A DNA stretch of 64,000 nucleotides. Origin: Gracilinema caldarium DSM 7334. Its GTDB lineage: Bacteria; Spirochaetota; Spirochaetia; Treponematales; Breznakiellaceae. The position numbers and the translations under genes are program-made. Below are positions 28,219 through 61,122 of the stretch, piece by piece. The DNA is taken from the NCBI RefSeq assembly GCF_000219725.1, contig NC_015732.1:2294001-2358000 (forward strand). Reading direction: 5' to 3'. The notes under the pieces are model-generated. The model searched no databases. It was not told the DNA's origin and was given only the letters and a program-made list of their open reading frames with translations. How positions within the stretch are numbered: the stretch's first letter is position 1; each line of letters begins with the position of its first letter.

Positions 28219-28243
28219 CGGGTCGGTGAAACCATGATTTACT
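28215..28243 (+). promoter_or_regulatory. Promoter of the sulfoquinovosidase operon
   Basis: TTGACG at 28215-28220 and TTTACT at 28238-28243 are 17 bases apart. The -10 element lies inside the left arm of the operator palindrome, the geometry of a repressed promoter. The ABC operon promoter has the same layout. Confidence 0.6.
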
Positions 28244-28266
28244 TACTTAGTGTAAGTAAATCATGG
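28232..28266. promoter_or_regulatory. Operator O1, perfect 15-bp inverted repeat
   Basis: CCATGATTTACTTAC (28232-28246) and its exact complement (28252-28266) surround the centre TTAGT. It overlaps the -10 element and touches the ribosome site of the next gene. A closely related copy lies upstream of the ABC operon and weaker ones upstream of the ROK gene and of the transketolase operon. The nearby ROK repressor is the likely binding protein. Confidence 0.75.
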
Positions 28267-30457: not shown

Positions 30458-31141
30458 ATGACTATCGAAACCCTACGAACACTGAATCCTGGACTTAACT
30501 TTATTACTGCAGAAGACGACCACTTTGCCCCATTCGGCAGAACTTTTAAGCACCCCCATATGGGGGCCATCCTTGAACAAGCCAACCCTCTTGTTCCCGA
30601 CGGGCTCGAAGAAAACCAATATGTAGCATCAGTTCCTGAACTGGAGGCCCTGCCGGGCAAGGAGCTCTATGACCAGATATTCGGAGCAATTTCCATACAG
30701 GTTGGTTTTGTGGTAGGGCCCAATATGAGCCTTAACGGTCTTGAATATCATAAATCGCCGGAAGTATTAATCGCCTTGACAGACCAGGTCTTGCTTCTGG
30801 GAAAATGGGAAGATATAGATCCCGACTGGCAGTATGATTCAAGCCAGGTGATTGGCCTGTATCTAAAAAAGGGAGACGCCATAGAATTATATCCTAGAAC
30901 GCTCCATTTTTCGCCCTGCCGTGTACAGGATGGGGGCTTTAAAAGCCTCATCATCCTCCCCCGGGGCACCAATACCCCCCTCTCTGAAACAATCCTGGAA
31001 CAGCGAACACCGGGAACCGAAGCTCAATGCCTTTTTATGAAAAATAAGTGGCTTTTAGCCCACCCTGAACGAAAACCGCTTATGCAAAAAGGTGCCTATC
31101 CCGGTATTCGGGGTAAAAACATAGTGGTGCAATATAGGTAA
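30458..31141 (+). CDS. DUF4867-like cupin protein, candidate sulfoquinovose isomerase
   Basis: A 227-residue soluble protein with cupin-like strands (YDQIFGAISIQVGFVVGP, VIGLYLKKGDAIELYPRTLHFSPC, KSLIILPRGTN). It resembles the DUF4867 family, members of which, as I recall, sit in Firmicutes sulfoquinovose clusters and isomerise sulfoquinovose to 6-deoxy-6-sulfofructose. His and Glu residues in the HFSPC and LEYHKSPE blocks could bind a metal. It lies 11 bases after the glycosidase and 20 before the symporter, with AAGGA near its ATG, so it is the second gene of the operon. The catalytic assignment rests on context and remembered family, not on an alignment. Confidence 0.65.
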   Translation: MTIETLRTLNPGLNFITAEDDHFAPFGRTFKHPHMGAILEQANPLVPDGLEENQYVASVPELEALPGKELYDQIFGAISIQVGFVVGPNMSLNGLEYHKSPEVLIALTDQVLLLGKWEDIDPDWQYDSSQVIGLYLKKGDAIELYPRTLHFSPCRVQDGGFKSLIILPRGTNTPLSETILEQRTPGTEAQCLFMKNKWLLAHPERKPLMQKGAYPGIRGKNIVVQYR

Positions 31142-32712: not shown

Positions 32713-34035
32713 TTATTTTACAATCTCCCAACCTTCTATGTGAGCCAGGATTTCAAAGGGTTTAACATAGGTGCCATACACCACCGAGGCATGATGGGCG
32801 ATGCCGTTATTTACCACTGTTGCGAGTACATCTTCAACCTTCCGTTCGAACACAACCTTCATATAGGTGCCTTTAAGGAGCTTGTCCATGGGTACAGCTC
32901 TGGCGGTATCCAGAAGGAGCCGGAACTTGCCATCGCAGGAATCGAGCCGGAGGATTGAAAGGTCACCGCTTTTTAGTACAAAGTCCGCAGTAACGCCCTT
33001 GCCGCCGGCAAAATAGGTATCCAAGGACCGGACACAGCGGCCATCCCAGAGGTTGCAGGGGGCCACACCGCAGTGCCAGAACAGGGCAAAGTTCTGTTCC
33101 AGATCGATCTGGGAAAAATCGAACAGGAAGGGAGTTTCAGCCCCAACCGCCCGGTGGGCCAGCATGGAGAGAGCTCCTTCCACATCCCCCTCGCAGGCCA
33201 GGATCCGGTCCTCCGCCTGGAGGAGGCTCATGGCGGCACAGGGACTGATGCCATAGGTGGCGGCAAATTCGGGCCAGCACCGGATAGCCAGAGCTGTCAG
33301 CCGCTTGGCAGTCAAAAAGGCATCCAGCTTAGCCGAGAGGGCTGCCACCTTATCAAGCTGGTCACCGGTAATTCCAGAAACATCAAAGACCTGTTGCAGC
33401 TGTTCCTTACGGCGGGCTACCTCTGAGTCAGGCACCGGGTAACTAAATACCTCATCCAATTCAAAATGGTCCACCAGCACGCCAAGCTGATTATAGAGAG
33501 CCAGGTCGGCGGTGCTCAGGTTAAAGAAACCGTGGGCCCGGTACCCGATAATCCCGACCCGGGCGGTCGAAAGGGCTATCCTGACCCGGATTGCATCGAG
33601 CCAGTCCTGGTCCATGTCGGGCCGAACCACCACTCGGTAATTCCGGATACCACCCTTGTACAGGTTCGAGGCATTCAAATTGGCCCCGCACACTGAATTG
33701 AGCCGGATTTTTCCACCATCATAGGGCAGTTCCGGCAGGGCCCAGAGCAGTATGGGCTTTTTCACCTGTTTTGCAATCACCAGTGCCAGATGCCCCAGAT
33801 GAAAGGTGCCGGAAATAATGGCCACCGCATCAACCCGTTTTTCTGCGAGCAGTTCCGCAGCCTTTTCCGCTTCCTCTACTTCGATAACCAGATCTTCCGG
33901 AGTAACGAGGGTTACCTGTTCCAGTTGAGACAGGTCCTGCCGGAGCTTTTTCCAGATTTCCCCTGCGGTTTTCCAGTCATAGGTCTTCCGTGCCAGGCAG
34001 ACCACACCGAGGGTAATATGTTGTTTCATGTTCAT
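32713..34035 (-). CDS. L-fucose/L-arabinose isomerase-like protein
   Basis: A 440-residue protein of the fucose/arabinose isomerase superfamily. Expected metal-site regions are present: IRCWPEFAATYGISPCAAM near residue 245 (Glu), ACEGDVEGALS near 280 (Asp), and a late His in GIAHHASVVYG. FWHCGVAPCNLWDG is also characteristic. Such enzymes interconvert aldoses and ketoses with a divalent metal; short members often have unknown sugar substrates. ATG 34035 begins one base after the upstream permease stop, with AAAGGA in that permease's 3' end. It is the last gene of the ABC operon and shares the operator with the sulfoquinovosidase operon. A sulfosugar substrate, for example in either isomerisation of sulfoglycolysis, is possible but unproven. 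Confidence 0.8.
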   Translation of the reverse strand: MNMKQHITLGVVCLARKTYDWKTAGEIWKKLRQDLSQLEQVTLVTPEDLVIEVEEAEKAAELLAEKRVDAVAIISGTFHLGHLALVIAKQVKKPILLWALPELPYDGGKIRLNSVCGANLNASNLYKGGIRNYRVVVRPDMDQDWLDAIRVRIALSTARVGIIGYRAHGFFNLSTADLALYNQLGVLVDHFELDEVFSYPVPDSEVARRKEQLQQVFDVSGITGDQLDKVAALSAKLDAFLTAKRLTALAIRCWPEFAATYGISPCAAMSLLQAEDRILACEGDVEGALSMLAHRAVGAETPFLFDFSQIDLEQNFALFWHCGVAPCNLWDGRCVRSLDTYFAGGKGVTADFVLKSGDLSILRLDSCDGKFRLLLDTARAVPMDKLLKGTYMKVVFERKVEDVLATVVNNGIAHHASVVYGTYVKPFEILAHIEGWEIVK

Positions 34036-34036
34036 C

Positions 34037-34918
34037 CTATCCTTTGACCGCACCGGCGGTCAGCCCGGAAATGATCCGGTTATGAAGCATCGTATACAGG
34101 GCAATGCTGGGAATGATCGATATCATAATGGCGGCATACATGGAGGTATAATCCGTCACGAATTGGCTGGTAAAAAAGCGGATACCCAACTGCAGGGTAC
34201 GGCTGGCGGAAGAGCTTGTGAGCAGAAGGGCCATAATAAACTCATTCCAGGCATAGATAAAGCAGAAGGTTCCCGCCGTAACGAGCCCCGTCTGAGCCAG
34301 GGGCAGTACAATTTTTGTATAGCGCTGAAGAAATGAACAACCATCGATGACCGCCGCTTCTTCCATTTCCTTTGGAATGGATCGCATAAAAGCAGTTACC
34401 AGGAATATCGATACGGGTATATTGATGGACCCATAGACGATGATGAGGGCGAGGAGGCGGTCATAGAGCTTAAGGCGGGTAATGAGGGTAAAATAGGGAA
34501 CCATAAAGGAAATAATAGGCACCAAAACCCCGGCGGTGAGCAGGGTATATATCAGTTCCCTGCCCCGGAATTGTTCTCTTGCAAGGACAAAGCCGGCCAT
34601 GCTTGTTACAAGGAGGTTTAATAGCACCGCACCAAAAGCAACGTAGATTGAATGGAGAAACAGGGATGGTAGGTTTGCCAGCTTAAGGGCGTTTTCATAG
34701 TTAGTCCACTGTAAAACCTTGGGTAAGGTAAAGGGAGAGACTTGCAATTCCAGGTTGGTTTTTAATGAAGAAATAAAAAGCCAGACGAGCGGAAAGGCTG
34801 CAATGAGGAAAAAGAATGCAAGGACGGTTATAACGCCGATGGTACCCGCAAGAGCTATAATCCGCTGAAGGGGGCGCTGTTTCATTGTGTTTATCTGCTG
34901 TAGTGAATTCGCTTTCAT
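34037..34918 (-). CDS. ABC sugar transporter permease, MalG type
   Basis: A 293-residue inner-membrane protein with six helices. The EAA loop that docks the ATPase reads EEAAVIDGCSFLQRYTKIVLPLAQTG near residue 195, typical of carbohydrate importer permeases of the CUT1 class. It overlaps the upstream permease by 4 bases and is followed directly by the isomerase-like gene. No ATPase gene lies in the cluster; CUT1 systems often share one ATPase encoded elsewhere, as MsiK does. Confidence 0.93.
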   Translation of the reverse strand: MKANSLQQINTMKQRPLQRIIALAGTIGVITVLAFFFLIAAFPLVWLFISSLKTNLELQVSPFTLPKVLQWTNYENALKLANLPSLFLHSIYVAFGAVLLNLLVTSMAGFVLAREQFRGRELIYTLLTAGVLVPIISFMVPYFTLITRLKLYDRLLALIIVYGSINIPVSIFLVTAFMRSIPKEMEEAAVIDGCSFLQRYTKIVLPLAQTGLVTAGTFCFIYAWNEFIMALLLTSSSASRTLQLGIRFFTSQFVTDYTSMYAAIMISIIPSIALYTMLHNRIISGLTAGAVKG

Positions 34919-35811
34919 TGGGCAGCCTCCGCCATGGGATCATTTTTAGAAAGCAGGGAACGGATCAGTACAATAAGAACGGTCCCAAGCAATATCAGTA
35001 TGGCTCCGATGGCGCTTGCCTCCCCATACCGGAAGGCATCCATTTTATTGTAGAGCTGTATGCCCATGGTGGTGGTGGCATAGGCTGGGCCGCCGCCGGT
35101 CATAAGGAAGGTGGCCTCGAAATGGCGCATACCATAGGCCATAGCCAGGGTGATGCTGGTCACCAGGGTCCCGGTAATCGTAGGGAGGGTAATCCTGAAG
35201 GTTTGCTGAATCACCGAAGCGCCGTCAATCTCGGCGGCTTCATAGAGGCTGTCTGGAATATTGCTGATCGCCGCCAGGATGATGATCATAAAGTAGCCGA
35301 TATAAAGGACCGACTGGGCGATTACGGCAGTCAGGGCGGTGGCGGTGTCCCCGAGCCAGTTGTGGCCCTTCATGCCCACCAGTGCAAGGAGCCCATTTAA
35401 AAGCCCATAGGTGGGATTATAAATAGCCTTCCAGAGCATGGCCAGGGCCACCGCTGATATAACATTGGGAAGAAAGTAGAGGGTCCGCAGGAATTTCCAC
35501 AGGGGAGGCTTGCGGGCTAATATAAGGGCTACCAGGGTAGCCAGGGGTATTTGGATAAAACCGGAAGCAAAGGCCCAGATAAAGTTGTTCCGAATTCCCA
35601 AGGTAAAGGTGCTGTCGGAAAAAAGCTTTTTGTAGTTTGCAAAACCTACAAACTGAGCTTTTGATATGCCGGTCCATTCCATCAAGCTGGTTATACTGAT
35701 GAAAAACAAAGGATACAGAAAAAAGGCCCCATACAAGATCAAGACGGGAGCGAGAAATATCCCGATCCCCAGTCTATGACGGCCAGAGAAGGTGCTCCCG
35801 CCTCGTCTCAT
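34915..35811 (-). CDS. ABC sugar transporter permease, MalF type
   Basis: A 298-residue inner-membrane protein with six helices and a CUT1 EAA loop, YEAAEIDGASVIQQTFRITLPTITG, near residue 195. It begins one base after the binding-protein stop, with AAGGAG inside that gene's 3' end. With the second permease it forms the membrane channel for the sugar delivered by the neighbouring binding protein. Confidence 0.93.
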   Translation of the reverse strand: MRRGGSTFSGRHRLGIGIFLAPVLILYGAFFLYPLFFISITSLMEWTGISKAQFVGFANYKKLFSDSTFTLGIRNNFIWAFASGFIQIPLATLVALILARKPPLWKFLRTLYFLPNVISAVALAMLWKAIYNPTYGLLNGLLALVGMKGHNWLGDTATALTAVIAQSVLYIGYFMIIILAAISNIPDSLYEAAEIDGASVIQQTFRITLPTITGTLVTSITLAMAYGMRHFEATFLMTGGGPAYATTTMGIQLYNKMDAFRYGEASAIGAILILLGTVLIVLIRSLLSKNDPMAEAAQ

Positions 35812-35812
35812 A

Positions 35813-37078
35813 TTACCGTTTCTCCTTGGCTGCCACAGCTTTCATAAATTCTTCCGGAGTAGCCTGGCCGAGGGCCATCTTGGCTAACTGCTGGCCAAAT
35901 TCGGCGACGACCTCAGCGCCCCGGGCGCCTTCCAGGTGCATCACGTTAAAGGCAGATTTGTTGGATAGATCGTAGAACTGCTTCATCAGGGGATCCACCG
36001 CATCCGCATCGGTCAGGTCAAAGGAGACAGCGAACATGGCCCCAGAGGAAAGGGCAATCCGCTTTACGTTTTCAGGCTTGGTCATCCATTTTAGGAATGC
36101 AATCTGGGCGGCCTTCTTAGCGGGATCCTTGGTATTACCTGCGGCAATATTTGCTTGGAGGAAACCAATCATGGCATTTTTATAGGTTCCAGCGGCAGGG
36201 GCGGGAGCCACTTTCGCATTGGCAAAAACCTCGGGGGCTTCTTTCTGGACCCGACCAATATACCAGGGGCCATTGGTAAAGAGCGCAGTCCGGCCAGCCA
36301 GGAAATGACCGCCAGCCACACCCGCATCGCCGCCCACTGCATCGGGGGTCGTATTTCCATTTTCATACATTTTCTTGAGCAGGGCCGCGGCCTGGACAAA
36401 AACTGGGTCGGTAAGGGGTTTATCCCAGACTTTGGGGCCGCCGAGAGATGCGGCAAAATGGGAGAACCAGAGCATGCTGGTCCAGGCATTGGTACCACCA
36501 GTCATCTGGCTTGCGGGGGTAATACCTGCGGCCTTGAGCTTTTCAAAGACGGTCCACATTTCATTGACTGTCTTGGGATAGGTAACACCCACTTTTTTCA
36601 GGAGGGCCTCATTATACCAGATGGGGGTGATGGCAATTTCATAGGGAATCGATTTCATGACCCCATTGATGGTAGCCTGTTCCAGGGTGCCTGCCTTAAA
36701 GGAAGCCTTCCAGTCGCTGGTAATTTCCTTGGAGAAATCCAAAAGGAGGTCAGATTTGTAATACTCAGCGGTGGTTGGATTCAGTTTCAGGGTAAAAATA
36801 TCAGGGACAATGCCTGCGGCAATAGAGGTACGAATCTTCTGTTCGTATCCATCATAATCGGGCTGGGGCTCAATTTCTACCCGGATTTTCCCTGCATTAG
36901 CTGCATTAAATTCGTTAACCAGTTTTTCCACTTCCGCAGCCTTGGAATCCTTGCCAACCCAGATGCAGGGCCATTTAAGCACTACTTCCTTGGAACCGGC
37001 ATCTTTCTGTCCTTCTGCCATAGAAAAAAAAGATGTTGCCAGTAAAAGGATACCTATCAATCCTAGCGTTCGTTTCAT
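35813..37078 (-). CDS. ABC sugar-binding periplasmic protein
   Basis: A 421-residue extracellular solute-binding protein of the family 1 type that accompanies CUT1 importers. The ATG at 37078 has AAAGGAGG just upstream; a longer frame to 37120 would begin inside the operator. The signal peptide (MKRTLGLIGILLLATSFFS) ends without a lipobox Cys, so it is secreted rather than lipidated. Family features include EFNAANAGKIRVEIEPQPDYDGYEQKI, FLAGRTALFTNGPWYIG and a C-terminal MTKPENVKRIA. A helix-rich sugar pocket is likely, but the ligand cannot be read. Agrobacterium uses a similar ABC importer for sulfoquinovosyl glycerol, which fits the shared operator here. Confidence 0.92.
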   Translation of the reverse strand: MKRTLGLIGILLLATSFFSMAEGQKDAGSKEVVLKWPCIWVGKDSKAAEVEKLVNEFNAANAGKIRVEIEPQPDYDGYEQKIRTSIAAGIVPDIFTLKLNPTTAEYYKSDLLLDFSKEITSDWKASFKAGTLEQATINGVMKSIPYEIAITPIWYNEALLKKVGVTYPKTVNEMWTVFEKLKAAGITPASQMTGGTNAWTSMLWFSHFAASLGGPKVWDKPLTDPVFVQAAALLKKMYENGNTTPDAVGGDAGVAGGHFLAGRTALFTNGPWYIGRVQKEAPEVFANAKVAPAPAAGTYKNAMIGFLQANIAAGNTKDPAKKAAQIAFLKWMTKPENVKRIALSSGAMFAVSFDLTDADAVDPLMKQFYDLSNKSAFNVMHLEGARGAEVVAEFGQQLAKMALGQATPEEFMKAVAAKEKR

Positions 37079-37092: not shown

Positions 37093-37122
37093 GTTTACTT
37101 TCACTAAGTAAGTAAAACATGG
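37093..37122. promoter_or_regulatory. Operator O2 upstream of the ABC operon
   Basis: The core from 37094 to 37117 has the same half sites (TTTACTT and AAGTAAGTAAA) around a 5-base centre as the operator of the sulfoquinovosidase operon. The two agree at 27 of 31 positions when aligned without gaps. It covers the -10 element of the ABC operon promoter. Confidence 0.75.
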
Positions 37123-39805: not shown

Positions 39806-41017
39806 TTATATTGGTCTCTGCGGTTCTTTCAGGAACTGTTCAATCACGAGGTCGGTGGCACCGCGACCGATGCGACGGGAATCATAGACATCGGATACGA
39901 TTTTGATAGGATCCTGGGCTCGGTGAACCAAATCGGAAAGCCGTGTTTCCAAGGCTTCTTTAAGGAGCCGGGCATAACCGGGGAAGCGGCTGATAATAAG
40001 ATAGCTTTCCGGAGAAAAGAGGGTGTGAATATTGCGGACCGCCAGTTCAAACATATGAAGGGGTTCATCCAGTCCTGCCTGAATACGGGAACCTAGGGGG
40101 CTATCGAGCACCGTCTCCAGATCTGCCAGCCCAGTCCCGGGGGCAACCTTTTGTATCCGATTCAGGATAGCATCCTCAGCGATATAGGCTTCCAGGCAGC
40201 CCTGGCCGCCACAGGTACAGTGGGGCCCTTCACAGTTAAAGGAAAGGTGGCCCACTTCGAGGGCAGTTTTACCAAGGACCGTAAAGGGTTGGGTATTTTC
40301 AATATAGGCCCCGCCAACCCCGGAGCGGACGAGAAACGCAAAGAGGCTTTTCGAACCCCGGGCTTCGCCATACTTGAGTTCGGCCAGGGCTGCCAGGCTT
40401 GCGTTGTTATGGAGGTACACAGGAACTGCATAGCGTTCCTGCAATCTGGCAACCAACGGAAAATTGATAAGCCCCCTAATGCGGGGATAGGAAAGAATGA
40501 GCCCCTGATCCAGGTCAATCCGGCCCGGCGCTCCGATACCAAAGCCCAGAAGCCGGGAGATATCGATTTTACAAATCTCCAGAGCCCGCTCAATTAACCC
40601 ATGGAGGGCAGCGACCAGGGTGTCTGCGTCCAGATCTTCGGGGAACAGCCCTTCATCAACATAACGGATTTCCCCTGAAAAATCACTGAGAGCCAGGGTG
40701 GCAGAGCGGGACCAGAAATCAATCCCGATACTATAAAAGGCTTCCGGGACCACTTCGAAATACTGGGGTTTTCGCCCTTTTTTTTCCTCCCCAGCAGTTT
40801 GACCAGCCTGAGCCTCCTCATACCGGGCTAGCTGCACCGGCCTGATAAGCCCCTGTTTTTCGAGGTCTGTAAAAATGCGAAAAATAGTGGGAGCCCTGAG
40901 TCCGGTGAGGCTCACGACCTCTGATTGGGAAAGGTACTTGCGCTGTCTTAGGAGACCCAGTATAATTTTGACATTCCGTTCCCGGATATCAGCACTTCGC
41001 AGGGGCAATCCACTCAT
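39806..41017 (-). CDS. ROK family transcriptional repressor
   Basis: A 403-residue regulator. A winged helix-turn-helix occupies residues 14-75 (LSQSEVVSLTGLRAPTIFRIFTDLEKQGLI). A ROK sugar-kinase-like domain follows, with FGIGAPGRIDLDQG, the zinc motif GPHCTCGGQGCLEAY near residue 265 and EVGHLSF. ROK repressors of the NagC/XylR type bind palindromes and are released by a sugar ligand; the kinase motifs help form the ligand pocket. A third operator copy lies 2 bases before its ATG, suggesting autoregulation. It is the natural candidate to control the glycosidase, ABC and possibly transketolase operons, with a sulfosugar or its metabolite as ligand. Confidence 0.88.
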   Translation of the reverse strand: MSGLPLRSADIRERNVKIILGLLRQRKYLSQSEVVSLTGLRAPTIFRIFTDLEKQGLIRPVQLARYEEAQAGQTAGEEKKGRKPQYFEVVPEAFYSIGIDFWSRSATLALSDFSGEIRYVDEGLFPEDLDADTLVAALHGLIERALEICKIDISRLLGFGIGAPGRIDLDQGLILSYPRIRGLINFPLVARLQERYAVPVYLHNNASLAALAELKYGEARGSKSLFAFLVRSGVGGAYIENTQPFTVLGKTALEVGHLSFNCEGPHCTCGGQGCLEAYIAEDAILNRIQKVAPGTGLADLETVLDSPLGSRIQAGLDEPLHMFELAVRNIHTLFSPESYLIISRFPGYARLLKEALETRLSDLVHRAQDPIKIVSDVYDSRRIGRGATDLVIEQFLKEPQRPI

Positions 41018-41018: not shown

Positions 41019-41044
41019 GTTACTTCCAGTAAATAAGTATTAAC
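41019..41044. promoter_or_regulatory. Operator O3 directly upstream of the ROK gene
   Basis: GTTACTTCCAGTAAATAAGT and the following bases match O2 at 18 of 25 ungapped positions and O1 at about 17 of 24. It lies between the ROK start codon (41015-41017) and its upstream region, so binding would block its own promoter or ribosome site. Confidence 0.55.
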
Positions 41045-41930: not shown

Positions 41931-44900
41931 ATGAATTTATTTACAAACTGCAAACCCAGAGCCTCCGTGTTCGATAGGAACCGGAGAGACACGGTCCTTA
42001 ATCTAAGTGATTTTTTAAATCATCATTTTGATGAAAATTCTGCAAAGCAATTTTTGAGTGAGAATTTTGTTACTTCGGGCATGAAATTGCTCATTCAAAA
42101 AAGCTTTGACCGCCTTTCAAGCACCCATGATCAACCCTCGGCGTATCTGTTATCCCAGGCCATGGGCGGCGGTAAAACCCATAGCATGATTGTCCTTGGT
42201 TTATTGGCCCGTTATCCTGAATTACGACAAAACCTTGGTTTAAAACTACCGGATCCGCTTAAAAAGTATACCGTCATTGGGTTTGATGGCCGCGAATCGG
42301 ACTATCCCTATGGCCTTTGGGGAGCCCTGGCCAAGCAATTGGGGAAAGAGGAGCTCTTTAAGGACCATTACACCCCCCTTAAAGCACCGGGAGTTACGTC
42401 CTGGATTAGCCTGTTACAGGGGGAGCCGGTTATTATTTTATTAGATGAACTGCCACCCTATTTTGACAATGCCCGTTCCATACAGATTGGGGCTTCCAAT
42501 TTGGCGGATGTCACTGCAACCGCATTGTCCAATTTATTAGTGGCCGCCAATAAGGCAGAACTGGCGAATGTGGTTATTGTTATTTCAGACCTATCAGCAA
42601 CGGCTTACGCTGAAGGCTCTGGTTTCATTAATCAGGCCCTCGAGAACCTTAGGCAGGAGACCCAACGCAGTATTGTCCCCATTGAACCGGTAGCAACCCA
42701 GGGAGATGAAATCTTTCATATTCTCAGAACCCGGTTATTTGAAAGCCTCCCTGGTATTGCAGAAATTGACAGGGTTGCATGCCGCTATGCCGAAGCGGTT
42801 GAGCAGGCAAAACACATGGAACTCACTGCCCAATCATCAGCCTCATTTGCCGCCTTAATTCGGGAATCCTATCCCTTCCATTATGCCTTAAGGGACCTCT
42901 ATGGCAGGTTTAAGGCAAATCCTGGATTTCAGCAGACCCGGGGCTTACTGCGTTTAATGCGGGCTGTGGTATCCAATCTCTGGGAAACAGAACGGGCGAA
43001 ACAGCTTGAGCTGATTCATCCCTATGATATCGACCTGAATAATCAGGAAATTTTCAGCGAATTTTCTACCATCAACCCAAACCTTAATGAAGCGGTTCGC
43101 CTTGATATTGCCAACCATGGGACTTCCCATGCAGAAGCATTGGATGCCAAACTTGGCGGCGGCACCCAAGCCCAGGATGCGGCCAAACTGCTCTATGTGG
43201 CTTCCCTTTCTACAGCCCAGAATCCCGAACTGGGACTCAGGGACAGCGAACTCATTGCATGGCTTTGCAGGCCCGATTATGATATTTCTAGGCTAAAAAC
43301 CGATGTCCTGGAACAGCTCCCGACAAGCGCCTGGTACCTTCATGTTTCCACCGATGGCCGCTTATATTTTAAGAATGTACGAAACCTGGCGGCAACCCTG
43401 CACAGCTATGTCGAATCCTATACACAAGAAACAAGAATCAAAGAGTTAAAGGAATATCTCAGCAGTTTATTTAAGCCTACTCTGGGGGATGTTTACCAGG
43501 CTTGCCTTGTGCTTCCCCTATGGCAAGAAGTGCAACCGGAACAGGATAAGACCATTCTTGTGGTAACCGAACCCTACCAGGTTCAAGGTCAGGATCAAAT
43601 ACCCTTACACCCCGATTTTATTCGGCTCTATGAACAGCTTGAATATAAGAACCGGATTCTCTTTTTAACCGGCGATCGGGATACCATGACAGAGGTTCTG
43701 AAAAATGCCGCGTTGCTCAAGGCTATCGAAACCATCCTGGCTGAACAGGATAGTGAAAGACTTTCTGAACGGGATCCCCAGCGAATTGAGGCAAAAAAAA
43801 GTAAGGACAGGATTTTAATCAACCTGAGGAGTGCCATTCAACAAACCTACAGCACCGTAGTATACCCCTCCGCAGACAGACTGCGGAAAGAAATCATACG
43901 GTTCAACTTTGACAATAACAACTATGAGGGGGAAAGCCAGATTCGCTCAGCCCTGCTTAATGCCCGTAAATTCAGTGATGATACAAAAAATCTGGATGCC
44001 TGGATTGGAAAGGTAGAAGAACGGCTCTTTGACAACCAAAACCCGGTACGCTGGAAGGATGTAAAAGCCCGGGCCGCCAGCAAAACAAACTGGCAATTGC
44101 ATCTTCCCCGACTGCTCGATGACATAAAGGGACATGCGGTACGTACCGGCAAATGGCGGGAAGAAGGGGAGTATGTCCGAAAAGGCCCGTTCCCCAAGGA
44201 ACCTACCGGCATAAGCGTCATTGTTAAAAACCGGGATGAAAACACCGGCAAAGCAATCCTGGAAATACGCCCTATTGGGGGCACCAAGGTGCTCTATGAA
44301 ATTGGGGACATTATACCCACCACTGCCAGCTCTCCGGTTCCCAATTATAGTGCCTTTGAAACAGATGACTTAAAGCTCACCTTTGTTTGTATCGATGAAA
44401 ATGACCCAAACCATGAAGCTAGGCCGGTGGTTTGGAAAAACAAAGTCAGCTTAAAAAGCAGGATCTTTGAACAAGCCGGAGAACGGTACATAGAGTTTGT
44501 TTCCGCACCACAAGTACCAATTTTTTATACCACCGATGGGTCTGACCCCCGCACCAGGGGTGTCCCCTACGCAGGACCTTTCCCCATTCCCCGCAGTTGC
44601 CGGGTCATACAGGCTCTCGCAAAAAAAGATGACATAGAAAGCGAGATCCTCAGCCGGGACGTAACCCAACAGGAACGTACCGCAGTAGACCCCGCAAAAC
44701 CACTCACCTGGAAAACAAAGCGGTTCCAAAACATAGCAACAAGCGAAGCCTGGCAGGTAGTTACAAGACTCATTGAACATAGCGGAGAGGCAGAGGGCCT
44801 TACCATTTACTTTGAACTCCCGGAAACCGGAGGTGAGGAATTTAACTATACCGCTCCGGAGGGTATCCGTAAAAGTGGAGAAGATATAAAAGATATTCTG

Positions 44901-45041
44901 GAACTTGTCAGCAATTATGCGGGAACTGTGAATATCGGCCTCACGATCCAACGGATCCACTTTTCCCGGGGTCAGGACTTTCTGGATTGGACCAATAAGG
45001 ACAAAATTCCCTATGACTTTACGAGCGAGGTCCGGCAGTGA
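41931..45041 (+). CDS. DUF499 family AAA+ ATPase (defence-associated)
   Basis: A 1036-residue ATPase. The Walker A is AMGGGKTHSM near residue 80, in the DUF499 context DQPSAYLLSQAMGGGKTH, and Walker B is VIILLDELPPYF near 168. A sensor-like VIVISDLSATAY follows. The C-terminal third contains a chitobiase-like segment (YIEFVSAPQVPIFYTTDGSDPRTRG), an unusual partner for an AAA+ domain. DUF499 proteins occur beside DUF1156 methylases, DUF3780 proteins and PLD helicases in clusters annotated as anti-phage. The next gene's GTG start overlaps its stop by 4 bases, so the two are translationally coupled. Exact activity of the family is not known to me. Confidence 0.88.
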   Translation: MNLFTNCKPRASVFDRNRRDTVLNLSDFLNHHFDENSAKQFLSENFVTSGMKLLIQKSFDRLSSTHDQPSAYLLSQAMGGGKTHSMIVLGLLARYPELRQNLGLKLPDPLKKYTVIGFDGRESDYPYGLWGALAKQLGKEELFKDHYTPLKAPGVTSWISLLQGEPVIILLDELPPYFDNARSIQIGASNLADVTATALSNLLVAANKAELANVVIVISDLSATAYAEGSGFINQALENLRQETQRSIVPIEPVATQGDEIFHILRTRLFESLPGIAEIDRVACRYAEAVEQAKHMELTAQSSASFAALIRESYPFHYALRDLYGRFKANPGFQQTRGLLRLMRAVVSNLWETERAKQLELIHPYDIDLNNQEIFSEFSTINPNLNEAVRLDIANHGTSHAEALDAKLGGGTQAQDAAKLLYVASLSTAQNPELGLRDSELIAWLCRPDYDISRLKTDVLEQLPTSAWYLHVSTDGRLYFKNVRNLAATLHSYVESYTQETRIKELKEYLSSLFKPTLGDVYQACLVLPLWQEVQPEQDKTILVVTEPYQVQGQDQIPLHPDFIRLYEQLEYKNRILFLTGDRDTMTEVLKNAALLKAIETILAEQDSERLSERDPQRIEAKKSKDRILINLRSAIQQTYSTVVYPSADRLRKEIIRFNFDNNNYEGESQIRSALLNARKFSDDTKNLDAWIGKVEERLFDNQNPVRWKDVKARAASKTNWQLHLPRLLDDIKGHAVRTGKWREEGEYVRKGPFPKEPTGISVIVKNRDENTGKAILEIRPIGGTKVLYEIGDIIPTTASSPVPNYSAFETDDLKLTFVCIDENDPNHEARPVVWKNKVSLKSRIFEQAGERYIEFVSAPQVPIFYTTDGSDPRTRGVPYAGPFPIPRSCRVIQALAKKDDIESEILSRDVTQQERTAVDPAKPLTWKTKRFQNIATSEAWQVVTRLIEHSGEAEGLTIYFELPETGGEEFNYTAPEGIRKSGEDIKDILELVSNYAGTVNIGLTIQRIHFSRGQDFLDWTNKDKIPYDFTSEVRQ

Positions 45042-45622
45042 AGCCCCGTTTTCCCGGTTTTGGTTTTGATCCGGAACAGCAAGCCCATTTTTTTGCGGTT
45101 CACTTTCCTGCCAGCACAAAAGAAGACAGCCCCATAAAGGTTGTGGAGCATTTTGAATGGAAAGGCGATATACCCGACGATGCAGACATACCTAATGAGC
45201 ACCGGGACCTTAAAACGATCATAAGGCGGGATTATTTTAAGGAAATAGCCGATCCAGTTAAGGCAGAATTCAACCGACGGCTTACGGCTCAAGGCTTAGC
45301 TAGTGGTAAATGGCTAATTCGTGGCGGCACCACCCTTCTTTCTGCTAGCTTTGGCAAGGAATTGCTGCTCCTCTTATGGGCCATAGAAGATGCCACCTTA
45401 AATGATGTTCAGAATGCAGTACATAACTGGCAGGGACTGTCACCAGAAGAACGCTGGTGGCTCTATACCATGACCAATGCGGCCACGGGGCAGGCTTTTG
45501 CAGGCCGCAACCGGGGCTGGCGTAAGGCCGTACGCTTTGCACTGTGTGAAAACCCGGTATCGGCTCCTATTATACGAAAACGCCCTATCCTTGAACCAAC
45601 CTTGTTTGACGGGGCTGACTAA
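45038..45622 (+). CDS. DUF3780 family defence-associated protein
   Basis: A 194-residue soluble protein beginning with GTG. The N-terminus (PRFPGFGFDPEQQAHFFAVHFP) and the central LSPEERWWLYTMTNAATGQA followed by GWRKAVRFAL match my memory of DUF3780, a small family found only with DUF499 and DUF1156 genes. The biochemical role is unknown; a scaffold or adapter is an inference from its size and constant company. It overlaps DUF499 by 4 bases and the AAA gene starts directly after its stop. Confidence 0.8.
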   Translation: MKPRFPGFGFDPEQQAHFFAVHFPASTKEDSPIKVVEHFEWKGDIPDDADIPNEHRDLKTIIRRDYFKEIADPVKAEFNRRLTAQGLASGKWLIRGGTTLLSASFGKELLLLLWAIEDATLNDVQNAVHNWQGLSPEERWWLYTMTNAATGQAFAGRNRGWRKAVRFALCENPVSAPIIRKRPILEPTLFDGAD

Positions 45623-47296
45623 ATGATACAGCGCATTGAGTTAACCAATTTTAAGACCTTTGAAAAACTTGCTATACCCCTTGGCCAGGTTACGATCCTT
45701 GTGGGGCCTAATAATTCGGGAAAAACGACCCTGCTCCAGGCTTTGACCCTATGGGATATAGCCCTGCGGAAATGGTGGGACCAAAAAGCCTCCAGCAAAG
45801 CAAAGGAACGAAAGGGCGTTACCATTAACCGGCAGGATTTGTATGCCATTCCTATTCCGGAAGCAAAGCTACTTTGGCATGACATACACACCCGTTCCGG
45901 TACAGGTGAAAACAGTACCGTTTATATGATCATTCAATTGGAAGGCTTTACACAAGAAAAAAGCTGGAAAGCAGCTTTGCAATTTTACTATGCAAACCCA
46001 GAATCCCTGTATGCCCGGCCGGTAGAAGGCATTGGGACGATAAAGGACCTGCAATTAGCCCTAAATGAAACCATGGCATACCTCCCACCCATGTCGGGCC
46101 TCTCGGCCTTTGAAGAACGGCTGGAAGAAGGAAGCATTCGCCGGCGCATCGGCGAAGGTCGTACCGCAGAAGTTTTAAGAAATCTGATATGGAAAATTTA
46201 TGATACCAATCGTAGTTCCTGGGAACTGCTCTGCAACACAGTACAGGAAGGCTTTGGTGCAGAACTCTTAACTCCTGAATATAACCAGGCAACCAGTATT
46301 ATCACCTGTTCCATACAGGAAGGAAAAAAACCTGTGATGGATTTGAGTACCAGCGGACGGGGGTTCCAGCAATTTTTGCTGCTCTACAGCTATCTGTTTT
46401 ACCAGCCCCACACGGTTTTAATGCTCGATGAACCCGATGCCCATCTCGAGTACCTTAGGCAACAGGGGTTGTATCGTGCCCTGGTACAACAAACAAATGA
46501 AAAGGGTACCCAATTACTCATTGCAACCCATTCAGAGGCTATGTTAGACCTGGCTTTTGAACATGATGATACCGTTATTGCTTTTGTCCGGAACCCCCAC
46601 CCCATCAGAAAAGCAAAAGCAAGGGAGTTAAAAAAGGCTCTCCTAGAAATTCCTGCAAAGGATTATCTTTTAGCGGAAGAGCAGAAAAGGATCCTGTATC
46701 TCGAAGGAAGCACAGACCTGGCTTTGTTAAAAGCCTTTGCAAAAGTCCTAAGACACCCGGGGGCACAAGCATTGGAACGAGCCTGGGTCATATTTATCAA
46801 TACAAACAATCTGGACAAATGCAGGAGCCATTTTACAGGGTTACAAGAAGAAGTTCCAGACTTGAAAGGACTGCTCCTCACCGACAACCTGGGGCGAAAC
46901 TTTGAGTTTCCCCCTGGTTTAGAGCACCTGCAATTACAACGGAACGAGATTGAATGTTATCTACCCTTGCCAGACATTTTGTATCGGTACTTTGGGGAGC
47001 CAGCGGCCAATGCCATGGAACTGTTCGAATCCACCACTATCGATACCCTAAGGCAGATAATCCAGGATGAGACCATACCAGCGGCGCTCCGGGATAAAAA
47101 CCATGATTTTTGGAAAACCACTAAAATTTCCGATGACTGGTTGGCAAAAATACTGGAGCGGTACTACAAAGAACTACAGCTTCCTGTACAAATCAGAAAG
47201 GGAGAATACTACCGCTTTGCGGAAAAGGCCCAGCCTGATGAACTGGATCCGGAAGTAAAAGCAACACTTGATAGGATACACACTTTTTTATCATAA
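45623..47296 (+). CDS. OLD-like AAA ATPase with possible TOPRIM region
   Basis: A 557-residue protein of the RecF/OLD-type ATPases. Walker A is VGPNNSGKTTLLQAL near residue 31. Signature region DLSTSGRGFQQFLLLYSY near 241 and Walker B VLMLDEPDAHLEYL near 265 are intact, with the H-loop IATHSEAMLD near 299. The C-terminal half has YLEGSTDLALLKAF near 356 and GLLLTDNLG near 415, spaced like the Glu and Asp motifs of a TOPRIM nuclease, though the second motif is D-N rather than D-x-D. OLD nucleases act in phage exclusion, so an effector role in this system is plausible. It is not a usual component of the DUF499 clusters I recall. Confidence 0.8.
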   Translation: MIQRIELTNFKTFEKLAIPLGQVTILVGPNNSGKTTLLQALTLWDIALRKWWDQKASSKAKERKGVTINRQDLYAIPIPEAKLLWHDIHTRSGTGENSTVYMIIQLEGFTQEKSWKAALQFYYANPESLYARPVEGIGTIKDLQLALNETMAYLPPMSGLSAFEERLEEGSIRRRIGEGRTAEVLRNLIWKIYDTNRSSWELLCNTVQEGFGAELLTPEYNQATSIITCSIQEGKKPVMDLSTSGRGFQQFLLLYSYLFYQPHTVLMLDEPDAHLEYLRQQGLYRALVQQTNEKGTQLLIATHSEAMLDLAFEHDDTVIAFVRNPHPIRKAKARELKKALLEIPAKDYLLAEEQKRILYLEGSTDLALLKAFAKVLRHPGAQALERAWVIFINTNNLDKCRSHFTGLQEEVPDLKGLLLTDNLGRNFEFPPGLEHLQLQRNEIECYLPLPDILYRYFGEPAANAMELFESTTIDTLRQIIQDETIPAALRDKNHDFWKTTKISDDWLAKILERYYKELQLPVQIRKGEYYRFAEKAQPDELDPEVKATLDRIHTFLS

Positions 47297-47307
47297 AGGA
47301 CTCCCCC

Positions 47308-48933: not shown

Positions 48934-48985
48934 AAAACAAACAACTCTTTACAAAAGAAGCAAATACAGAGATAATCTCAATAAG

Positions 48986-49029
48986 AAGTGCACGGAAGAA
49001 AGGGGTAAGGCCTTAAAAAGCGTGCACTT
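48986..49029 (+). other. Hairpin in the IS leader
   Basis: AAGTGCACG at 48986-48994 pairs perfectly with CGTGCACTT at 49021-49029, 16 bases before the transposase ATG. Structures at this position in other IS elements can stop transposase expression driven by outside promoters; that role is inferred here. Confidence 0.5.
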
Positions 49030-49044
49030 TACTATGGGGTAACG

Positions 49045-50508: not shown

Positions 50509-50571
50509 ATTAAACCCATTTTAACGTAAAAAAGTTTTGAAATATCATTTTTAGACATTTTCAGTAGGCCC

Positions 50572-54931: not shown

Positions 54932-54943
54932 TTCCATATGAAA

Positions 54944-56682: not shown

Positions 56683-56706
56683 ATTAGTTTCTTTCTGTAA
56701 GTAATT
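56683..56706. promoter_or_regulatory. Operator O4 candidate upstream of the transketolase operon
   Basis: Matches O1 at 18 of 24 ungapped positions, with nine identical bases in a row (TGTAAGTAA) and the same 5-base centre spacing. It is less palindromic than O1. It lies 57 bases before the transketolase start. A weak TTTACA-17-TACTCT promoter (56651-56679) is just upstream of it. Confidence 0.5.
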
Positions 56707-56763
56707 ACAAACGCCGCACCGAAGCATCGGCGGTTTTCAGCCTTTGTGCAAACAGGAGTTGCT

Positions 56764-57603
56764 ATGACAAACGAAGAACGGGTAGCCATAGAAGCCTTTG
56801 CCCGGGAGATACGGATTCACACCATCCGGGCTATTGGAACCTTAGGGGTAGGCCACATTGGGGGCGCCATGTCGATTGTGGAGGTCCTGGCGGTCCTTTA
56901 CAGCAAACACTTACGGCATGATCCAAAGAATCCCGCATGGCGGGAACGGGACCGGCTCGTGCTTTCCAAGGGACACGCGGGGCCCGCCCTCTATTCGGCC
57001 CTGGCCCTGCGGGGATTCTTTCCTTTAGACTGGCTCCTGACACTGAATCAGGGCGGGACCCGCCTGCCGAGCCACTGCGACCGGACCAAAACACCGGGGA
57101 TTGATATGACCACGGGCTCCCTTGGCCAGGGGCTTTCCGCCGCCTGCGGCATCGCCTACGGAAACCGGCTCGATGGGCTTGAGTCCTACACCTATGCCAT
57201 CATCGGGGACGGCGAAAGCGACGAAGGGCAAAACTGGGAAGCGGCCATGTTTGCTTCCCACAAAAAGCTGGACCATCTTATCGCCTTTACGGACTACAAC
57301 AAGATGCAGATCGATGGCTATACCCAGGATATTTTGGACCTGGGGGACATTGAAGGGAAATGGTGGGGCTTTGGCTGGCGAGTTCTGCGGTTGGACGGCC
57401 ACAACGTAGAAGCCCTGGACTCAGCCATCAGCCTGGCAAAAACGACCAGGGGCCAGCCGGTGATGATCATCATGGATACCATTAAAGGCAAGGGTTGCAG
57501 TTTTGCCGAAGGGAACCTGGGAAATCACAACATGAATGTCACGAAGGAACAGATGGAAGCAGCCCTGGCGGCATTGGCCGGGGAAGGCCGGGAGGGAAAA
57601 TAA
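56764..57603 (+). CDS. sqwG: Transketolase N-terminal subunit (sulfoglycolytic candidate)
   Basis: A 279-residue protein equal to the thiamine-diphosphate half of transketolase. AGGAG lies 5 bases before ATG 56764. Motifs: GVGHIGGAMSIVEVLAVLYS, LSKGHAGPALYSALALRG, and the TPP site IIGDGESDEGQNWEAAMFA with DYNKMQIDG. It pairs with the next gene, whose ATG overlaps its stop. Split transketolases occur in many bacteria, but here the downstream RpiB-like isomerase, iron alcohol dehydrogenase and TauE exporter match the sulfoglycolytic transketolase route reported in Clostridium and relatives. There a split enzyme moves two-carbon units from sulfofructose and sulfoerythrulose to glyceraldehyde 3-phosphate. 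The symbol follows that system and is provisional. Confidence 0.85.
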   Translation: MTNEERVAIEAFAREIRIHTIRAIGTLGVGHIGGAMSIVEVLAVLYSKHLRHDPKNPAWRERDRLVLSKGHAGPALYSALALRGFFPLDWLLTLNQGGTRLPSHCDRTKTPGIDMTTGSLGQGLSAACGIAYGNRLDGLESYTYAIIGDGESDEGQNWEAAMFASHKKLDHLIAFTDYNKMQIDGYTQDILDLGDIEGKWWGFGWRVLRLDGHNVEALDSAISLAKTTRGQPVMIIMDTIKGKGCSFAEGNLGNHNMNVTKEQMEAALAALAGEGREGK

Positions 57604-58547
57604 TGGAAACCAGGGAAATGCGCACCGTGTTTATCAATACACTTATAGAAGCAGGCAAAAAGGATGATCGGATCGTTCTGATTGATGCAGACCTGGGCAA
57701 GGCCGGCGCTACGGCGTCCTTTGCCCAAACCTTTCCTGAGCGGCACATCAATGTGGGGGTCGCCGAGGCAAACATGATCGGCGTCTCCGCAGGCCTGGCC
57801 AGCGTCGGTAAAATACCGGTAGCCCAGACCTTTGGGTGCTTTGCAAGCCGCCGGGTCTTTGATCAATTTTTTATATCCGTAGCCTATGCCCATCTGCCGG
57901 TAAAACTCGTGGGTACCGATCCGGGAATTTCCGCGGCCTTTAACGGGGGAACCCACATGCCCTTTGAAGACCTGGGAACCATGCGGCTCATTCCTGATCT
58001 TACGATTGTGGAACCCTCCGATCCGGTTTCCCTTGCAGGGCTCTTACCGGAAGTGCTTGCCCAGCAAAAACCCGCCTACATTCGGCTGTACCGGAAACCT
58101 CTGCCGGTCCTGTACAGTGAAGGGGAACCATTCCAAATCGGGAAATGCAAGGTCCTCCGCCAGGGAGGCCCCAATTCGGTACTGCTCATAGCCCTTGGTG
58201 GCATTATGGTACAGGAAGCGCTGGAGGCGGCAAAAATCCTGGAAGCCCAGGGCATTTCGGTGACCATTATCGATGTGCTTACTTTAAAGCCCATTGATGC
58301 GGAGGGGCTCCTTTCGGCTATGAAGAACGCCCGGGCAGTAATAAGCTGTGAGAATCATCAAATCCATGGCGCCTTAGGCAGTGCGGTGGCGGAGCTCATG
58401 GCCGAGTACCGAATATATAAGCCCTTTGGCAGAATTGGTATCCGGGACGAGTTTGGTCAGGTCGGAACAGAGCAATGGCTTAAGGAGCACTTTAAGCTGG
58501 ACAGCCGCTCTATCGTTGAGGCGGCAACAGGACTGTTACAAAAGTAA
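57603..58547 (+). CDS. sqwH: Transketolase C-terminal subunit (sulfoglycolytic candidate)
   Basis: A 314-residue protein with the pyrimidine-binding and C-terminal domains of transketolase. ATG 57603 overlaps the partner's TAA, so the subunits are translationally coupled. Key features are DADLGKAG near residue 25, the catalytic Glu in VGVAEANMIGVSAGLA near 52, QTFGCFASRRVFDQ and PKTxAKEP-like GTDPGIS. The last 100 residues form the C-terminal domain (LIALGGIMVQEALEAA). In ordinary metabolism such enzymes also serve the pentose phosphate pathway, so an alternative role in sugar-phosphate balance remains possible. The operon context favours sulfosugar cleavage. Confidence 0.85.
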   Translation: METREMRTVFINTLIEAGKKDDRIVLIDADLGKAGATASFAQTFPERHINVGVAEANMIGVSAGLASVGKIPVAQTFGCFASRRVFDQFFISVAYAHLPVKLVGTDPGISAAFNGGTHMPFEDLGTMRLIPDLTIVEPSDPVSLAGLLPEVLAQQKPAYIRLYRKPLPVLYSEGEPFQIGKCKVLRQGGPNSVLLIALGGIMVQEALEAAKILEAQGISVTIIDVLTLKPIDAEGLLSAMKNARAVISCENHQIHGALGSAVAELMAEYRIYKPFGRIGIRDEFGQVGTEQWLKEHFKLDSRSIVEAATGLLQK

Positions 58548-58598
58548 GGGAACAGGAATCGTTCATCAATATAAAGAACTTAGTAGAGGAGTATGACT

Positions 58599-59087
58599 AT
58601 GGCAGACAAGATTACCCTGGCAATCGCCAGCGACCTTTCGGGATTTCCCCTCGCCCGGGAAATTGTTAAACATCTAAAGGAAAACCATCCGGAGCTTACC
58701 GTGATTGATTATGGCATCATGAGTGCCGATAAGCCTGAGCCCTACTTCGTGCAGGCTCCTAAGGTCGCCAAGGCCGTACAGCGGGGAGAGGCCCAGAAGG
58801 GGATTCTCATTTGCGGGACCGGTCAGGGCATGGCCATTGTTGCCAACAAGCATAGGGGGGTCTATGCCTGTGTGGTGGATGACATTTTTTCCGGCGAACG
58901 GGCAAAGATTATCAACAATGCCAACGTGATTACCCTGGGGGGCTGGATTACGGCGCCCTTCCTGGGTTGCCAAATCGTGGATGCCTGGCTTGCCATGTCC
59001 TTTACCCAGAAGATGGAGTTTAAAAAGGACTTTCTCACCAATGCCTTTAACCAGGTGGTTGCCCTGGAGGAAGAGAACTTTAAATGA
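58599..59087 (+). CDS. RpiB/LacAB-family isomerase, candidate sulfoerythrose isomerase
   Basis: A 162-residue protein of the RpiB fold. GAGGAG is correctly spaced for ATG 58599; an ATG two codons earlier is too close. The catalytic loop GILICGTGQGMAIVANK is intact with its Cys. Residues that RpiB uses for the phosphorylated, ring-closed substrate differ: the His of GCDHxGF is Leu here (ASDLSGF), and the His before NDTN is Ile (IINNANV). The two C-terminal Arg that bind phosphate in E. coli RpiB are not obvious. This fits a non-phosphorylated, open-chain substrate such as 4-deoxy-4-sulfoerythrose, and the operon position matches the isomerase of the sulfo-transketolase pathway. Confidence 0.8.
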   Translation: MADKITLAIASDLSGFPLAREIVKHLKENHPELTVIDYGIMSADKPEPYFVQAPKVAKAVQRGEAQKGILICGTGQGMAIVANKHRGVYACVVDDIFSGERAKIINNANVITLGGWITAPFLGCQIVDAWLAMSFTQKMEFKKDFLTNAFNQVVALEEENFK

Positions 59088-60346
59088 TCGGTGCCATTGC
59101 TTCTCCCACGAACATTATTGAGCTACCCCAGTTTACCGCGGCAGCGCTGGATGAGGTGCTGGTCTACAGCACCGGCCTTTCCGGCGCTGGCAACGTCGTC
59201 GCCAGTACAAACGACCGCACTGGTGCCGGTGCCGGCCCGGTGCTCTGCATCATCGACCCGCGGCCCTTCCCCCTGCGGGATCGGGTCCTGGCCGATCTGG
59301 GCCGCCGCTGGAAGCTCAGCATCATGGACCAGGTGGTACCGAACCCGGCGAGCAAAGATATTATGGCCATGGCGGAAGCAGCCCGCCAGCAGCGGCCTGC
59401 GGCGGTGCTCGGCATTGGCGGCGGCTCCACCCTGGATTCTGCCAAGGCGGTGGCCATGCTCCTGGAAAATCCGGGGGATTTGGATGAGTACCTGGGGCCC
59501 GATGCATCCCGGAAGCCCCAGAGCCGGTGTATACCTCTGCTCCTCATCCCCACCACCACAGGAACCGGCTCGGAGGTTACCCGATTCGGGGTCTATACCG
59601 TCCGGTCGGGCCGGAAGTACACCCTGAACAGCCCGGTCCTGCAGGCTGAGACCGCTCTCCTTTCCCCGGACCTGGTGGCAGACCTCCCCCCAGCCCTGGT
59701 GGCCGCCACGGGCTATGATGCCCTGACCCATGCCCTGGAAACCCTCTGGAATAAAAACGCGACCGCCCTTTCTGACCGGCTTGCCCTGGAGGCCGCTGCG
59801 GCGGTGCTCCGCAGTCTCGAACCGGCCTGGCGTGCAAGTCAGGGCCAGGGCCCCGCAGCAGCCCTGGCAGAGCTCCAGCAAGCTGCAACCCTGGCAGGCA
59901 TAGCCTTTAACAAGACGGGCACCGCCGCAATCCATGCCCTTTCTTTTATACTTTCAGAGGAATGGCACCTGAGCCATGGGGCGGCCTGTGCCTTCTTTAC
60001 CCAAAATATATTCGATATCAACATGCAGGACCCGGCGGTGCGGACGAAGTTTTTAACGCTGGCAAAACGGGTCTATGCAGAAGCAGGCGAGTCCAGCGCT
60101 TCACCGCTCTCCGATGAGGGGTACCTCCAGTACCTTCGGGACCGGCTTGTCGCATTAAAGCGGCTCATGGGCCTGCCGGACCGCTTCTCCGACATCCCGG
60201 GCTTTACCTTGCCGGGAAATGCCGATGAACAGGAAAAAATCGCCGCCCTCTTTGACAAGGCCCAGAATGATTTTAAGCTGAAAAACAACCCCGTACCCTG
60301 TACGCCTGAGCTTGTCCGGAAGCTGGTGCTGGAGAAGTTGCAATGA
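59084..60346 (+). CDS. Iron-containing alcohol dehydrogenase, candidate sulfoacetaldehyde reductase
   Basis: A 420-residue group III dehydrogenase. The cofactor site is LGIGGGSTLDSAKAVA near residue 108 and PTTTGTGSEVTRF near 158. The metal residues are Asp and His in TGYDALTHALE near 211, and His in KTGTAAIHALSF and EEWHLSHGAACAFF near 285-304. The gene overlaps the isomerase by 4 bases and the exporter by 4. In the sulfo-transketolase route a related enzyme reduces sulfoacetaldehyde to isethionate with NADH, which balances redox in an anaerobe. Because this family is broad, an aldehyde or alcohol substrate of another kind is possible. An acylating aldehyde dehydrogenase is absent, so sulfoacetate formation is less likely. 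Confidence 0.87.
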   Translation: MIGAIASPTNIIELPQFTAAALDEVLVYSTGLSGAGNVVASTNDRTGAGAGPVLCIIDPRPFPLRDRVLADLGRRWKLSIMDQVVPNPASKDIMAMAEAARQQRPAAVLGIGGGSTLDSAKAVAMLLENPGDLDEYLGPDASRKPQSRCIPLLLIPTTTGTGSEVTRFGVYTVRSGRKYTLNSPVLQAETALLSPDLVADLPPALVAATGYDALTHALETLWNKNATALSDRLALEAAAAVLRSLEPAWRASQGQGPAAALAELQQAATLAGIAFNKTGTAAIHALSFILSEEWHLSHGAACAFFTQNIFDINMQDPAVRTKFLTLAKRVYAEAGESSASPLSDEGYLQYLRDRLVALKRLMGLPDRFSDIPGFTLPGNADEQEKIAALFDKAQNDFKLKNNPVPCTPELVRKLVLEKLQ

Positions 60347-61122
60347 GCCCCCTCGTTTTTGGCCTGGTGGGCCTTACGGTTCTTATAACCCACGCCCTGG
60401 AGGCAATTACCGGCTTCGGCTGCACCGTATTAGCCTTACCCTTTGTAACGGCTCTCGTAGGGGTAAAAACCGGAGTGCCTATACTGGCAAGTCTCGCCTG
60501 GCTATTGGCTCTCTATATTGTCATCACCAAATGGAAATTCATCAATTTTAAAGAATTCGCCATCATCGTGTTCTTTGTCGGGCTTGGTCTTCCTTTTGGC
60601 ATGCTGGCCTTTAAAAACCTCGACGCCCGGATGCTTAAAAAAATCCTGGCGGTGTTCATCACATTGAGCGCAGCCTGGCAGGTATACCGCCGCTTTAAAA
60701 GGCCCAACCGGACTAACCCGAACTGCCCCGCCGCCCCGGAAGCGCCCCTGTCCGGAAGCCCCTGGGGCCGCCTGCCCTATTACCTGCTGCTTATTCTGGG
60801 CGGCATGGTCCACGGTGCCTTTGCTTCAGGGGGGCCCCTCGTGGTGCTCTATGCCTCAAAAACCCTAACCGACAAGGGCAGTTTTCGGGCGACCCTCTGC
60901 CTGCTCTGGACCACCTTAAACACCATACTCCTTATGAACTACCTGCGATCCGGAGTCTTTACGGCCCCCATCATCAGCGGGACCGCCGGGATGCTGCCAT
61001 TCTTGGTAGCGGGAATCATAGTCGGAGAAAAAATCCATTATAAGGTTGATGGAGAGATCTTCGGTAAGCTTATCTTTCTTGTGCTTTTTGCAACCGGCAT
61101 CTTTATGCTTTTCCTTGCATGA
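60343..61122 (+). CDS. TauE/SafE family anion exporter
   Basis: A 259-residue inner-membrane protein with about eight helices. The TSUP/TauE signature is seen in both halves: GLTVLITHALEAITGFGCTV with LPFVTALVG, and LILGGMVHGAFASGGPLVVLYASKTL. Members export sulfite, sulfoacetate and other C2 sulfonates. Placed last in the operon, it is the expected exporter for isethionate or a related sulfonate, which the cell cannot degrade further if no C-S lyase is present. It overlaps the dehydrogenase by 4 bases. Confidence 0.9.
   Translation: MSPLVFGLVGLTVLITHALEAITGFGCTVLALPFVTALVGVKTGVPILASLAWLLALYIVITKWKFINFKEFAIIVFFVGLGLPFGMLAFKNLDARMLKKILAVFITLSAAWQVYRRFKRPNRTNPNCPAAPEAPLSGSPWGRLPYYLLLILGGMVHGAFASGGPLVVLYASKTLTDKGSFRATLCLLWTTLNTILLMNYLRSGVFTAPIISGTAGMLPFLVAGIIVGEKIHYKVDGEIFGKLIFLVLFATGIFMLFLA

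Follow-up and report, generated by a model that had tools for sequence, protein, structure and literature searches.

An ABC importer and SqvD/SftI-family isomerase operon as the probable entry module of a sulfo-TK pathway in the spirochaete Gracilinema caldarium

In Gracilinema caldarium DSM 7334, a single minus-strand operon encodes an isomerase together with a binding protein and two permeases, and it is very likely that this operon serves as the uptake and first-step module of a complete sulfo-TK pathway for the plant sulfosugar sulfoquinovose (SQ), including a shared ATPase and control by a ROK-family regulator. The operon lies at 32713-37078 of the window, by which is meant the whole analysed stretch of 64,000 nucleotides (bases 2,294,001-2,358,000 of the complete 3.24-Mb genome). 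Its gene ends overlap or almost touch. The start of the binding protein is placed at 37078, because the first ATG of the frame, at 37120, precedes both the operator and a good ribosome site. An earlier note had described these four genes as a set without an ATPase gene, and this is confirmed by the gene calls and Pfam matches; an ATPase gene is absent from the operon and from the 6 kb on either side. The remaining sulfo-TK genes, SqwG-H-I-F-E, occupy 56746-61122 of the same window. The features are as follows.

28238..28260, plus strand: operator of the yihQ operon, reference copy TTTACTTACTTAGTGTAAGTAAA
28263..30446, plus strand: YihQ sulfoquinovosidase (GH31), 55% identical to E. coli YihQ
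30458..31141, plus strand: SqvB/SftX, a DUF4867 cupin, putative SQ mutarotase or ring-opening enzyme (PF16161, E 8.8e-68; role from PMC9594981)
31162..32598, plus strand: GPH-family symporter (TIGR00792, above cut-off)
32713..34035, minus strand, start at about 34035: SqvD/SftI-family isomerase, predicted sulfoquinovose isomerase (NF048012; weak Fucose_iso_C Pfam match)
34037..34918, minus strand: ABC permease 2 (PF00528, BPD_transp_1; 51% orthologue in the Clostridium MAG L020)
34915..35811, minus strand: ABC permease 1 (PF00528, BPD_transp_1)
35813..37078, minus strand: CUT1-type solute-binding protein, 421 aa (PF01547/PF13416, SBP_bac_1/8)
37094..37116, minus strand: operator of the binding-protein operon (1 mismatch to the yihQ site; conserved in L015 and L027)
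39806..41017, minus strand: ROK-family regulator, proposed repressor (PF00480; homologues near sqvD in relatives)
41019..41041, minus strand: weak copy of the operator upstream of the ROK gene (6 mismatches, as against 5 in L027, a sister genome)
56683..56705, plus strand: weak copy of the operator upstream of sqwG (6 mismatches, as against 2 in L027 and 5 in G012)
56746..57603, plus strand: SqwG, transketolase N-terminal half (PF00456)
57603..58547, plus strand: SqwH, transketolase C-terminal half (PF02779/PF02780)
58593..59087, plus strand: SqwI, RpiB-like putative sulfoerythrose isomerase (PF02502, the sole one in the genome)
59084..60346, plus strand: SqwF, iron-type alcohol dehydrogenase, probable sulfoacetaldehyde reductase (PF00465, family level)
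60343..61122, plus strand: SqwE, TauE/SafE exporter, probable isethionate exporter (PF01925, family level)

The importer operon is connected to the sulfoquinovosidase gene by a 23-bp palindrome, which is situated directly upstream of yihQ and recurs with a single mismatch before the binding-protein gene. At up to three mismatches these two copies are the only ones in the whole 3.24-Mb genome, and none was observed in 100 shuffles of the window. The earlier note had proposed such a common operator, and the proposal is borne out. The 6-mismatch copies before the ROK gene and sqwG are of a grade present in 0.9% of random 160-bp pieces of the window. Copies are also known from relatives. In sister genome G014, the mismatches number 0 at yihQ, 2 at the binding protein, 2 at sqwG and 5 at the ROK gene. 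G012, of another genus, carries copies before sqvD (4 mismatches) and sqwG (5), while L018 has one before sqvD (4) and G033 one before the binding-protein gene (3). As judged from these copies at matching promoters here and in relatives, the shared site marks a sulfosugar regulon. In the sister genome, yihQ-sqvB-GPH, the binding protein and permeases with sqvD, the ROK gene and sqwGHIFE all lie within one stretch, with operators before yihQ, the binding-protein gene, the ROK gene and sqwG; the idea of one regulon with the sulfoquinovosidase and a sulfosugar-related role is supported. Homologues of the ROK protein are encoded close to sqvD in several relatives, and this protein is probably the regulator of the operator-marked regulon, its binding being predicted. 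No report of a ROK regulator of SQ use was found in the literature searched.

Between a ThiF-like gene and sqwG, an anti-phage-associated island extends over 41931-56593, with genes for DUF499, DUF3780, an AAA ATPase, a DUF1156 methyltransferase, a PLD-helicase, an HTH-IrrE protein and a PIN-like protein. The methyltransferase (47308-51872) is interrupted by a transposase at 49045-50508, and its two parts match one model at profile positions 14-514 and 539-942. Since the ThiF-like gene directly adjoins sqwG in the sister genome, with the operator in between, the sqw promoter is probably the site at which the island entered, and the operator there is weak today.

The enzymes encoded around the operon are those of a known route. 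By family membership, SqwG-H-I-F-E constitute an isethionate-forming sulfo-TK set, and a search of the complete genome, made one protein family at a time, found no match to TAL_FSA (PF00923), the SF transaldolase of sulfo-TAL. In the YihQ of the window, the positions corresponding to Q288, R301, W304, D405, D472, Y508 and H537 of E. coli YihQ are conserved, and these include the catalytic and sulfonate-binding residues. The earlier note needs one correction of wording: the sulfoquinovosidase operon contains YihQ, the DUF4867 cupin and the GPH symporter, and the RpiB-like protein belongs to the third operon, at 56746-61122. Variants of these clusters were also observed elsewhere. In a Spirochaetota MAG (L018:13039-18634), an aldehyde dehydrogenase, an ATP-grasp CoA ligase and a sodium:sulfate-type symporter follow sqvD-sqwGHI, a gene set that fits a sulfoacetate-forming sulfo-TK variant. 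In the G012 cluster (L029:3671-4753), a GFO/IDH/MocA oxidoreductase gene between yihQ and the permeases is a candidate NAD-dependent (SqgA-like) sulfoquinovosidase. A YihQ-like gene is present on two plasmid records of the spirochaete Entomospira.

The distribution of the importer links it to the use of sulfoquinovose. Of 200 family genomes searched, 6 have a close orthologue of permease 1, and a full sqvD is present in five of these; in the sixth, on a short contig, the 3' end of sqvD comes directly before the importer. Importer orthologues adjoin the isomerase in three other genera, binding-protein orthologues in SQ clusters are 38-93% identical, and the Clostridium MAG L020 has an orthologous ABC importer inside a sulfo-TK cluster. 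As compared with the SmoF-type SQ-glycerol importer of A. tumefaciens and the rhizobial sulfo-ED clusters, which is also of the CUT1 class and adjoins YihQ, the permeases are 30-36% identical. Three SmoF-like proteins encoded on rhizobial plasmids, one of them itself compared with the SmoF chains in the PDB (7ofy, 7qhv), share about 21-24% identity with the binding protein, which by this comparison is not a SmoF orthologue. From its gene context, the protein is a probable receptor for SQ or its glyceride. The segments WVG-DSKA, NAWTSMLW, GHF and NG-W--GR hold residues that are invariant among its orthologues. SmoF and other named SQ-binding structures were absent among the best 60 PDB matches of the binding-protein profile, an absence uninformative alone. 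The structure model of the protein (pLDDT 48, from four alignable sequences) was set aside.

How is such an importer energized? A ugpC ATPase gene is part of the rhizobial SmoF-type clusters, whereas the window operon is without one. The earlier note had expected the ATPase to come from elsewhere, and the genome agrees with this: its only ATPase with a MalK-type OB domain (OB_MalK) lies at 1,036,190, matches UgpC above the curated cut-off and has no permease match within 100 kb. Furthermore, 20 of the 26 permease pairs in the genome are without an ATPase within 6 kb, so that a shared ATPase is the general rule here. With no ATPase gene of its own and an orphan UgpC-type one in the genome, the importer fits the CUT1 class served by a shared MsmX/UgpC ATPase. 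As with the known MsmX/UgpC multitask ATPases, one orphan CUT1 ATPase stands here beside many ATPase-less importers. The importer is thus probably powered by the single orphan UgpC/MsmX-type ATPase, a pairing that we infer. In the Clostridium stretch around the L020 importer, no homologue of the orphan ATPase was found.

A second question is what the ABC importer carries beside the GPH symporter of the yihQ operon. In 10-40 kb stretches around the loci, the clusters outside Gracilinema have either the ABC importer without the symporter (L020, G012) or the symporter type without the ABC importer (L019, L026; Caloramator is of this second kind), never both, and this suggests that the cargoes overlap. 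The loci of the Gracilinema group keep both transporters. The earlier note had assigned to the ABC importer a different sulfolipid breakdown product; such a division, for example SQ-glycerol for one and free SQ for the other, or the reverse, would make the two complementary and not redundant. It would be in line with the retention of both in the Gracilinema group, with a binding protein unlike SmoF and with the differing cargos assigned to the two GPH transporters of E. coli, YihO and YihP. Nevertheless, the one-or-the-other pattern in the remaining clusters points to interchangeable cargo, and a division is therefore possible but unlikely. Less probable still is that the symporter exports a product and leaves the ABC importer as the sole route of entry. 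GPH members can export, YihP being annotated as an exporter, and the window symporter is equally far from YihO and YihP (28% to each); however, the sqw operon already has the TauE-type exporter SqwE, and the GPH gene sits in the glycosidase operon and not alongside sqwF. Overlapping import by the ABC system and the symporter remains the favoured reading.

For the last gene of the operon, the SQ isomerase SftI model NF048012 is the only NCBIfam match (210.5 bits, E 3.8e-62). The score is below the curated 700-bit equivalog cut-off of the model, and another six isomerases, which belong to relatives and come from clusters of the sulfo-TAL, the sulfo-TK or an unassigned type, reach 193-214 bits. 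As the relatives' isomerases score so low as well, the cut-off alone is no argument against an SQ isomerase function; going by these scores, it marks a narrower group, and the window isomerase belongs to the same wider family, outside that equivalog. In its structure model (pLDDT 87), the protein has the L-arabinose/L-fucose isomerase (AraA/FucI) type of fold, with a Z score of 34 to AraA (433 residues aligned) and of 28 to FucI. E282 of an EGD motif and the pair H414 and H415, candidate metal ligands, are invariant in 13 homologues and align with the EGD and HH motifs of AraA in a profile alignment. A Gracilinema caldarium MAG (L016) carries the isomerase at 93% identity.

In published schemes, the conversion of SQ to sulfofructose is assigned to SqvD, a FucI-family enzyme; the DUF4867 protein is named SqvB and taken as a putative mutarotase, and the PF02502 protein, SqwI, as a putative sulfoerythrose isomerase (PMC9594981). 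As a member of the SqvD/SftI family, the window isomerase should make sulfofructose. It would fill a pathway step that is otherwise vacant, other steps being assigned already to the cupin and the RpiB-like protein (PMC9594981). The earlier suggestion that it might take over a step from either of these two proteins is not supported, given its sole NCBIfam match and the steps assigned to SqvB and SqwI. That its substrate is sulfoerythrose or an ordinary sugar such as fucose or arabinose, so that it replaces SqwI or serves another pathway, is very improbable: the fold common to L-arabinose and L-fucose isomerases and the weak Fucose_iso_C match would allow it, but the family match is to an SQ isomerase, a separate SqwI is encoded, and close homologues are also present in clusters of the sulfo-TAL type, which do not produce sulfoerythrose; for this last reason a replacement of SqwI was rejected. 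One such cluster is L019, with TAL_FSA, a sulfolactaldehyde-reductase-like gene and a close isomerase homologue; in Caloramator, the same isomerase type is found in a cluster with a transaldolase.

Two further homologues of the isomerase were recorded. One of 30% identity in G190, a member of the same bacterial family, had no yihQ, sqvB or sqw match in the surrounding 20 kb and was left out. A SqvD 58% identical to that of the window is encoded at L025:10010-11338, on a contig that binning assigned to the Asgard archaeon Candidatus Sigynarchaeum springense; the 11.7 kb of this contig have no match to other window genes, and either contamination or transfer may account for it.

Taken as a whole, the pathway with SqvD at its first isomerization is proposed to run as follows. 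The binding protein and the two permeases would import SQ or its glyceride, powered by the orphan UgpC/MsmX-type ATPase, and YihQ would release SQ from its glycosides. SqvB would then open or mutarotate the SQ ring, and the SqvD isomerase would convert SQ to 6-deoxy-6-sulfofructose at a FucI/AraA-type metal site. SqwGH would take off two C2 units, with SqwI working in between, and SqwF would reduce sulfoacetaldehyde to isethionate for export by SqwE. The ROK regulator probably represses all these operons via the shared palindrome.

The type of pathway to which the operon belongs is already known, and sulfo-TK has been published for Spirochaetes (PMC12890257; PMC13219744), including a transcribed cluster from a rumen spirochaete (PMC13219744). 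The sulfo-TK cluster of Clostridium sp. MSTE9 (SqvD-SqvB-SqwGH-SqwI-SqwF-SqwE), compared by its published description, is like the window in its enzyme set, in having YihQ and a clustered ABC importer, and in isethionate as its predicted product (PMC9594981; PMC11659671). In contrast, the window genes are spread over three operons, the third set apart by the anti-phage island, and a GPH symporter and a ROK-family regulator are added. Similarly, the rumen Neosphaerochaeta fermentans shares phylum and pathway with the window organism but, by its description, belongs to another family, the Sphaerochaetaceae (PMC13219744). In that paper, the legend to a figure of such clusters also lists SftX (DUF4867) and a SmoFGH transporter.

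What may be new is modest, namely the ROK/palindrome regulon and the non-SmoF receptor. It is tentatively put forward, with slightly less than an even chance of being right on both counts, that the binding protein represents a second, SmoF-unrelated type of SQ or SQ-glycerol receptor in anaerobic sulfo-TK bacteria of two phyla, and that a sulfosugar-sensing ROK repressor controls the regulon via the 23-bp palindrome. A thermophilic spirochaete genus is thus seen to hold a complete known SQ gene set of the isethionate-forming sulfo-TK type, in which each gene is assigned and a candidate operator is supplied. Isethionate feeds sulfide-producing bacteria, and knowing which anaerobes produce it helps to map the flow of sulfur.
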